Source of the DNA: Salvelinus alpinus
Lineage: Eukaryota; Chordata; Actinopteri; Salmoniformes; Salmonidae
Direction of reading: 5' to 3'
Length of the DNA stretch: 64,000 nucleotides
NCBI RefSeq assembly: GCF_045679555.1
Contig: NC_092087.1
Location: 88,310,966 to 88,374,965 of the forward strand
The translations under genes and the position numbers were made by a program. Below are positions 6,383 through 28,781 of this stretch, in pieces (position 1 is the first letter of the stretch; each line of letters begins with the position of its first letter). The notes beneath the pieces were generated by a model. That model searched no databases and was not told the origin of the DNA. It saw only the letters and a program-made list of their open reading frames with translations.

Positions 6383-9300
6383 TCAGAGTCCGTTGTAGAG
6401 CGGTCGACAGTGTGGTTCCAGTTTGTCCTCCAGCACAGCGTCTGGTCCACAGACCCACGGATCCCCAGTGTCCCACTGCCACTTCAGCAGCCTGGCAACA
6501 TAACATTAGGAAATAAATAACATAACAAATAACATAAGATATAACATAAGAAATACCCCCAAGGGGAAAATGGTTTGGCTTCCTCGAAATTCCCAAGTTT
6601 TCCTGAAATGTTGTTTGAAGGATTCCATATTTCTTGCTTATTCCATTCTGATTTTGGGAATCTTCCAACCCGGATTTCTGGAAAACCTGGGAATTTTGGG
6701 AAAGTTACCGGATTTTCGCAACCCTACTTAATATCGATATACAATAGAATACTATACTATAGAACAGTAATACTAACCTGTCCCTGAGGCTCTCCAGGAC
6801 CGGGGCGAGAGCCGGGTCCCCAGCCAGGTTCACAGTCTCCTCTGGGTCCGACCCCAAGTCAAAAAGCTCCCAGCGGTCCCTGTAGTAGTCATAGAAAGAT
6901 GTTTTGCCAGGGTTAGAGGTTCCAAGCCCATTCTATCAATTATATACCTATGGTAGTAGTATCATAGATATAGAACCCTTTATTTTATATTGTATATAGA
7001 CTCCAATGCTTTATATTGTATAGCTTTTATATTGTTTATAGACTCTGATGCTTTATATTGTATAGTTTTTATATTGTATATAGACTCCAATGCTTTATAT
7101 TGTATAGTTTTTATATTGTTTATAGACTCCGATGCTTTATATTGTATAGTTTTTATATTGATTATAGACTCCGATGCTTTATATTGTATAGTTTTTATAT
7201 TGTATATAGACTCTGATGCTTTATATTGTATAGTTTTTATATTGTTTATAGAATCCTATGCTTTATATTGTATAGTTTTTATATTATTTATAGACTCCGA
7301 TGCTTTATATTGTATAGTTTTTATATTGATTATAGACTCCGATGCTTTATATATTGTATAGTTTTTATATTGTACAGTTTAATTCCTATGGTAATGAAGA
7401 TAGTACAACAGTAGTACCGCTACATAATAGAGAATAATTAAGCAAATACTATAAAGGCCCAAAGGTGTGTGGTCTATTGACAAATCCCACAACCCCCCTG
7501 AGGCGCCTTATTGCTGTTATAAACTGGTTACCAACATCAATAGAAAAGGATTAAATAAAGAAAAATCCTCAATCTACACACAACACCCCATAATGACAAG
7601 GTGAAAACAGGTTTTTAGAAATGTTAGCAAATTTATTACAAATAAAAAACAGATACCTTATTTACATAATTATTCAGACCCTTTTCTATGAGACTCAAAA
7701 TTGAGCTCCGGGCCTTTCTGTTTCCATTGATCATCCTTGAGATGTTTCTCCAACCTGATTGGAGTCCACCTGTGGTAAATTCTATTGATTGGACATGATT
7801 TGGAAAGGCACACACCTGTCTATATAAGGTCCCACAGTTGACAGTGCATGTCATAGCAAAAACCAAGCCATGAGGTTGAAGGAATTGTCCGTAGAGCTTC
7901 GAAACAGGATTATGTCGAGGCACAGATCTAGGGAAGGGTACCAAAACATTTATGCAGCATTGATGTCGCCAAGAACACAGTGGCATCCATCATTCTTAAA
8001 TTAAAGAAGTTTGGAACCACCAAGACTCTTCCTAGAGCTGGCTGCCTGGCCAAACTGAGCAATCGGGGAGAAGGGCCTAAGTCAGGGAGGTGACCAAGAA
8101 CCCAATGGTCACTCTGACAGAGCTCCAGAGTTCCTCTGTGGAGATGGGAGAAACTTCCAGAAGGGCAACCATCTCTGCAGCACTCCACCAATCAGGCCCC
8201 AATGAGTAAAGGGTCTGAATACTTATGTAAATGTGATATCAGTTTTTTATTCAAATCATTTCTAAAAACCTGTTTTTGCTTTACCATCATGGGTTATTGT
8301 GTGTAGATTGATGAGAGAAAAAACAATTTAATCCATTTTAGAATAAGGCTGTAACGTAACCAAATGTGGAAAAAGTGAAGGGGTCTGAATACTTTCCGAA
8401 TGCACTGTACATACAACTGAATTGTTGTTTCAGCCAATCAGCATCCTGGACCCAAAGTACCCGGTTTATAGTCTAGTATAATAGTGTTTGTTGTATCGGT
8501 CTAAGCTCCTCACTCCGAACCACAAACGCCACCGCAGCGACGGGGGTTCTCTGGGGTTTCTACACCCCTCTCTATGTCTATCTCCCTATCTGTAATTACA
8601 TCTGTCCTCTCTAAACTTAGATACATAAAGGGATCTCCTTCAAAAAGTACCTGTAGTATTGTTGCAGGGTCTTGAACCAGTTTGTGGTCAGCCTGGCCAG
8701 GGTGTTGTTCAGATACATAATATAGTATAATAGTGTGTAATATAATAGTATATAATATAGTATAATAGTGTATAATATACTGTATAATATAGTATAATAG
8801 TGTATAATATAATAGTATATAATATAGTATAATAGTGTATATAATAGTATTATAACAGTACCTGTAGTAGTATTGTTGCAGGGTCTTGAACCAGCCTGTG
8901 GGCCGCCCCGCCAGGGTGTTATTCAGATATATAATATAGTATAATATAATACTATATAATATAGTATAATAGTGTATATAATAGTATTATACCAGTACCT
9001 GTAGTAGTATTGTTGCAGGGTCTTGAACCAACCTGTGGGCCGCCCGGCTAGGGTGTTATTCAGATATATAATATAGTATAATATAATACTATATAATATA
9101 GTATAATAGTGTATATAATAGTATTATACCAGTACCTGTAGTAGTATTGTTGCAGAGTCTTGAACCAGCCTGTGGGCTGTCCGGCCAGGGTGTTATTCAA
9201 CAGGTCCTGGAAGGTGGGAGAGACATAGAAGTCCTGGTCTATGGGGAAGGGCATGCGGTAGTGGAGGTTGTGGAGCAGGCGGTACGCCCCCTGGTGGATG

Positions 9301-28781: not shown

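Follow-up and report, generated by a model that had tools for sequence, protein, structure and literature searches.

Tandem minisatellite-like units lying across exon-intron boundaries are known from amphioxus as mirages, with examples in the globin genes BflGb6 and BflGb9 and in Adh3, TnC and PGBD5 (PMC3087553, PMC3902484). In the sections of these papers cited here, the units measure tens to about 160 bp, either side of an exon can be affected and splicing is reported to be undisturbed. The globin paper, in the section cited, sets out a model leading from mirages to intron gain and predicts that new introns carry mirage relics (PMC3087553). The arrays described below are of the same make: tandem units across exon-intron boundaries, with both sides possible. 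There are also differences. In these sections, amphioxus mirages concern few genes and few copies, whereas the present host is a vertebrate and copy numbers reach about 51. Unlike in amphioxus, a junction excess was measured here in two gene sets, and two introns contain the predicted relics. For amphioxus, splicing and length instability were shown, whereas the present arrays are known from the sequence of one assembly.

Tandem duplication as a source of introns has been reviewed (PMC3443670, as excerpted). Introns of this origin are described in ATP2A1 (Hellsten et al.), in potato RdRp and in fission yeast (PMC3443670, PMC4974935). According to the excerpts, a duplicated exonic stretch gives both donor and acceptor there and the intron consists of exon copies, as is the case here. 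Unlike these examples, the duplication in sgsh became a minisatellite, its donor lies in a GTAA seam and its acceptors read AG/C and AG/G (a slash marks the splice site throughout). In human genes of segmental duplications, boundary minisatellites form novel introns, and the part of the source cited gives 27 intron modifications (PMC2812944). Those are recently duplicated primate genes, whereas sgsh is single-copy and the further stretches, from SLC6 genes, were unselected. The closest case in a salmonid is irak3 of rainbow trout, where intron 4 contains four repeats of the first 15-17 nt of exon 5, just upstream of that exon. Like the present arrays, these are intronic repeats of coding sequence in a salmonid; in the text cited, they are an isolated remark, unnamed, uncounted and with no tie to intron gain (PMC6763605).

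A sequence-only reading of this DNA had supposed that such arrays belong to no named class. They match the amphioxus mirages, and the trout irak3 repeats and the human duplicated genes are alike. The open-access literature yielded no such survey in ray-finned fish and no sgsh case, which is no proof that none has been published.

The window, meaning the whole stretch of DNA analysed, comprises 64 kb (C2:88310966-88374965) of the 2.37-Gb Salvelinus alpinus assembly. It contains sgsh and slc26a11 head to head. Both genes were rebuilt exon by exon and have 10 and 14 coding introns, respectively (24 in all; Table 1). The protein of sgsh exons 1-9 aligned with human SGSH (4mhx) at 731 bits over residues 14-442. 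Genome searches returned 10 matches for sgsh, none outside the window region and hence no second copy, and one genomic match for slc26a11 exon 6; no duplicates of either gene for dating intron gain were found in these searches.

Further features of the window were recorded. Most of sgsh intron 2 is occupied (15400-17012) by what we take, from its ends, to be a Tc1/mariner-like element. In the exon 2 donor, the GTA is directly followed by the element's inverted end CAGTGGGGAGAACAAG, which suggests an insertion inside the splice site itself. A two-exon gene on the minus strand (2676-3740) has an intron without an array; we take its peptide to resemble neuropeptide B. Three arrays (41873-43337, 52659-53289 and 62867-63243) have a unit of 38-40 bp in common, and two of them adjoin regions of C2H2 zinc-finger-like 84-bp repeats. 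These shared arrays were likely carried by segmental duplication.

Table 1. Genes, sgsh introns and junction arrays. Positions are those of the window, or of the named SLC6 stretch (L numbers).
Feature	Position	Strand	Description
sgsh	17477..6383	minus	11 coding exons, intact frame
sgsh exon 7 donor array	12582..12818	minus	45-107 bp units, 46 bp of exon (TRF)
Older copy of sgsh exon 7 (positions 131-196), within intron 7	12464..12529	minus	82% (blastn)
sgsh exon 8	11744..11900	minus	end CTACGCCAG/GTAAAA
sgsh exon 8 donor array	9722..11780	minus	41 bp × about 51 (TRF)
sgsh intron 8	9343..11743	minus	2401 bp; absent from human and zebrafish
Acceptor end of sgsh intron 8	9343..9362	minus	TTCCACATTGTCTACGGCAG, 15/20 equal to exon 8 end
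sgsh exon 9	9136..9342	minus	end ACTACTACAG/GTACTG
sgsh exon 9 donor array	8717..9199	minus	137 bp × 3, 64 bp of exon per unit
sgsh intron 9	6880..9135	minus	2256 bp; absent from human and zebrafish
Acceptor end of sgsh intron 9	6880..6891	minus	TGACTACTACAG, 10/12 equal to exon 9 end
sgsh intron 10	6492..6777	minus	286 bp; absent from human and zebrafish
slc26a11	20056..28781	plus	15 coding exons, 588 codons including stop, 0 internal stops
slc26a11 exon 2 donor-derived array	21098..21698	plus	39 bp × 16
slc26a11 exon 5 donor array	23435..24354	plus	45 bp × 20, 135-bp higher order, 19 bp of exon
slc26a11 intron 6 array	24723..24841	plus	51 bp × 2.3, acceptor-like units
slc26a11 exon 11 acceptor array	26590..26953	plus	62 bp × 5.8, 11 bp of exon (TRF)
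slc26a11 exon 14 donor array	27859..28600	plus	33 bp × 22.5, 99% alike, 12 bp of exon
L031 donor array			52 bp × 10
L034 acceptor array			35 bp × 21
L035 donor array			19 bp × 4
L036 donor array	1280-1897		50 bp × 12
L045 donor array			60 bp × 3
L046 donor array			35 bp × 15, cut by stretch end
L046 acceptor array			65 bp × 2

The seven junction arrays that had been reported in about 24 introns are present. Six of them overlap coding sequence by 11-64 bp (TRF), with units running across the exon-intron boundary as in mirages. The seventh, at slc26a11 exon 2, begins inside the intron, 53 bp beyond the donor, and therefore has no exon overlap; its unit nevertheless reproduces the junction, and it counts as a mirage by unit sequence only. 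The 39-bp unit holds CTGTACAG/GTGAGAG, as at the real donor, and CAGGTGAG is present 12 times without mismatch. Just behind the array, at 21710, the exon 2 end is copied at greater length. The acceptor-like units claimed for slc26a11 intron 6 were also found; they stop 47 bases short of the exon. At the slc26a11 exon 13 acceptor, a GT-rich array overlaps the exon by 7 bp (TRF), which is a doubtful case.

Splice-site sequences recur exactly within the arrays: CCAG/GTAA in 50 copies at sgsh exon 8, CCAGGTA in 21 copies at slc26a11 exon 5 and CTGCAG/GTACTG in 22 copies at slc26a11 exon 14. The 99% alike units of the last array fit recent growth. The coding frame of slc26a11 exon 14 (27739-28627) is open across the array and reads VLTDWVCSGLQ repeats, so splicing from inner donors would lengthen the protein by such repeats in frame. 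The motif CAG/GT had been named as the part shared by all arrays. It equals the donor consensus, and sgsh exon 7 is an exception to it, with an end in CTGG.

The 26 exons of the two genes were compared with their 24 introns by blastn, and only four strong exon-intron pairs resulted (sgsh E7, E8 and E9; slc26a11 exon 5). In all four, the 3' part of the exon matched the next downstream intron on the same strand. Two non-adjacent matches were weak (E 0.003 and 0.03), and exon parts as short as those of slc26a11 exons 2, 11 and 14 were under the threshold for strong matches. The array of sgsh exon 7 sits in a conserved intron, and intron 9 contains an older diverged copy of exon 9 at about 8653-8711. 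Introner-like elements would disperse one sequence through the introns of many genes; the array units differ between these genes. As the unit lengths (41, 137, 45-107, 39, 45, 33 and 62 bp) and sequences are unrelated, the arrays go back to independent events, as the sequence-only reading had proposed.

For the comparison with chance, arrays were collapsed to one unit, which was placed anywhere touching an intron. Since only intron-touching units are allowed, coding-only duplications are already treated as selected away. In sgsh and slc26a11, 7 of 19 arrays (period of at least 12) overlapped exons by at least 7 bp. With placement anywhere in the introns, 2.5 were expected (P 0.006); with each array held to its own intron, 4.3 were expected (P 0.09). 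The window had been chosen for showing the pattern, and given the P of 0.09 it is moderately above chance and not decisive alone. A genome sample of twenty 10-kb stretches, four of which lie near the window, had 4.05 arrays (period 12 or more) per 10 kb, covering 17.8% of bases; in the window, the values were 5.6 per 10 kb and 24%. A subtelomeric position as the cause of the many arrays was rejected, as the window lies at 88.3 Mb of a 131-Mb contig. Mean GC was 50% in junction units, 46% in other units and 53% in exons; as a cause of the junction excess, GC preference may have a small effect.

An independent set was taken from SLC6 genes of the same genome. A genome search with the SLC6 domain PF00209 gave 118 exon matches, of which 113 were used; five near-identical tandem copies on C2 stayed untyped. 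Nineteen stretches (69 kb), containing 47 of the 113 matches, were picked by exon density before any sequence was viewed. Two of the 76 exon blocks had no splice signals and were omitted. Exon edges were set automatically and are partly approximate; the exon end in L031 was placed by eye. In this set and in the pooled data, overlap meant at least 8 bp of exon. The candidate overlaps in L038, L042 and L044 were inspected and not counted as mirages; they also fail the 8-bp rule.

Seven junction arrays were found in 6 of the 19 stretches. Either exon boundary is used, by donors and an acceptor in the window and by acceptors in L034 and L046. In L046, a single SLC6 exon (928-1144) is flanked by junction arrays on both sides. 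With a period of at least 15, exons were overlapped by 7 of 31 arrays, where 2.2 were expected (P 0.005). The numbers for units of 20 bp or more were 6 of 24 against 2.0 (P 0.011), so the predicted excess over random placement held in the SLC6 stretches. With both sets pooled and the same unit limit of 20 bp, overlap was seen in 12 of 40 arrays against 4.3 expected (P 0.0006), and 23 of 40 overlapped a junction or lay at most 25 bp from one against 8.5 expected, which 0 of 300,000 simulations reached; the P values presuppose correct founder units and present introns minus arrays, and as later insertions lengthen introns, the expected counts may be too low.

In the pooled sets, the arrays collect on both sides of junctions and crowd the intron side. 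This bears on the earlier choice between a hotspot and selection alone: the excess persists with selection granted, and together with the crowding it leans to a bias at or near junctions. The data suggest that junctions, or simple sequences beside them, start duplications more often. Donors outnumbered acceptors by 10 to 3 in both sets (11 to 3 with slc26a11 exon 2), and a donor preference is suggestive only (two-sided binomial about 0.09, or 0.06 with slc26a11 exon 2).

Two other accounts of the excess appear unlikely, one about as much as the other. A high minisatellite load combined with selection would let arrays arise anywhere, purge the exonic ones and leave short introns to force contact with exons. 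This agrees with the array-rich genome and with the 4.3 of 19 arrays expected in their own introns against the 7 seen, but both pooled counts, the 12 and the 23 of 40, exceed expectation under a null that bars coding-only placement. Alternatively, seeds close to junctions (GT or CA runs, pyrimidine tracts) would start slippage, and the arrays would then spread into the exon. GT-, CA- or CT-rich arrays do occur near junctions (window 24376, 27093 and 27412; L035 195 and 6701), and 11 non-overlapping arrays lie within 25 bp; however, the arrays of sgsh E7 and E8, slc26a11 exon 5, L036, L045 and L046 consist of long complex exon stretches with no simple repeat.

One SLC6 array can be compared with its empty site. 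L036 (C23) and L037 (C30) are paralogous, with 79-89% identity in seven blocks including introns; the pair probably dates from the salmonid genome doubling. The donor that bears 12 copies in L036 has no array in L037, and the sequence behind the L036 array resumes that of L037. The 50-bp unit has an intronic part that is mostly missing from L037, as if filler DNA came at founding. Hence, this unit cannot be accounted for by plain duplication of the old junction.

Human SGSH has eight exons, with c.948 in exon 7 and both V361 and R377 in exon 8, according to the part of the source cited (PMC12379534). In the alignment with the human protein, intron 8 of the window gene falls at S364, intron 9 at R433 and intron 10 further on. 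From these positions and the extent of human exon 8, introns 8, 9 and 10 are missing in human. In zebrafish sgsh, exon 7 is the last exon, and a deletion of exons 5 and 6 removes 286 bp (PMC8197930, section cited). Exons 6 and 7 of the window gene (82 + 204 = 286 bp) equal these zebrafish exons in length, and the phases agree. The absence from outgroups thus refers to human and zebrafish only, by way of the cited sections and the alignment.

Introns 8 and 9 contain sequence derived from the neighbouring exon. Of the 41 nt in the array unit of intron 8, 37 are coding sequence of exon 8 and the other four are GTAA; the unit has no older intron sequence, and its first copy equals the exon at all 37 nt. 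The array is followed by about 380 bp of unique sequence with a MITE-like stretch and then by the acceptor. The MITE-like stretch (window 9500-9660) has inverted ends GTTTCCCAGACAC. Its arrival later than the array or beside it, as later intron growth, fits this layout.

The end of intron 8 is identical to the end of exon 8 at 10 of 12 and 15 of 20 positions, and read in the exon 9 frame it gives HIVYG+S, which is close to TVFGS in human. For intron 9, the agreement with the end of exon 9 is 10 of 12 positions. Exon ends and intron ends were compared across 71 introns (24 from the window and 47 from SLC6; 4970 cross pairs). Only sgsh introns 8 and 9, the two best, had a strong copy of the preceding exon end. 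One of the 4970 cross pairs reached at least 10/12 and none at least 15/20. The strict Rogers form, with AG/GT at both duplicated sites, was not seen in the new acceptors, which are AG/C and AG/G. At intron 10, there is neither an exon-derived array nor an exon-end copy at the acceptor. As this intron is also extra, arrays do not explain all gains.

With splicing as predicted, tandem duplication appears to have given rise to sgsh introns 8 and 9, most likely after the split from the zebrafish lineage. That both introns are old and disappeared independently in zebrafish and human is improbable. Intron loss is common in vertebrates, and only two outgroups were compared, both through papers, but the purely coding-plus-GTAA unit of intron 8 and the exon-end copies at both acceptors speak against old introns. 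It is very unlikely that a function, such as that of reserve donors or coding repeats, maintains the arrays. The open frame of slc26a11 exon 14 would permit the latter if inner donors were used, but sgsh exon 8 and slc26a11 exon 5 reach a TAA stop directly past the donor, the paralogue L037 has an empty site, and the units of the 14 arrays in both gene sets differ in length, with only 5 of 14 being multiples of three, so the copies are not kept in frame. A coding function of arrays in general was rejected for the same unit lengths, slc26a11 exon 14 apart. An assembly artefact can practically be set aside: long near-identical arrays are hard to assemble, but units have diverged in several arrays (82-94% in sgsh E7; L045), and the same class occurs on many chromosomes and is published from other species.

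Taken as a whole, the arrays are probably mirages from junction-spanning tandem duplication, and sgsh introns 8 and 9 were probably born from arrays. A short stretch across an exon-intron junction would duplicate in tandem and found a minisatellite. Exon definition would keep the donor nearest the exon in use (or the acceptor on the other side). With the nearest splice site in use, extra copies would be intronic and silent, and the array would be free to grow. Duplications inside exons would not be silent. A wholly coding duplication may survive only if its seam acts as a donor and a later copy as an acceptor; where the last copy supplies the acceptor, the array itself would become a new intron. 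At sgsh exon 8, the GTAA seam after 37 nt of coding sequence would be this donor.

What was observed directly is the arrays with their exon content and adjacency, the variety of their units and, for two gene sets, a moderate junction excess. The pattern is real and not unique to the window, its kind is already known, and sgsh is a good new case of intron birth. It is possible, if still short of probable, that salmonid splice junctions are genome-wide founding hotspots of minisatellites (about one exon in ten in this sample) and a live source of new introns.

The origin of new introns in vertebrates is an old question for which clear cases are few. If salmonids carry many mirages of all ages, the path from junction duplication to array to intron would be datable step by step, and the gene copies of the genome doubling would serve as empty-site controls. 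A ready test gene is sgsh, where two such introns interrupt what is one exon in human and zebrafish. The choice of splice sites is also touched, with up to about 50 near-identical donors in a row.
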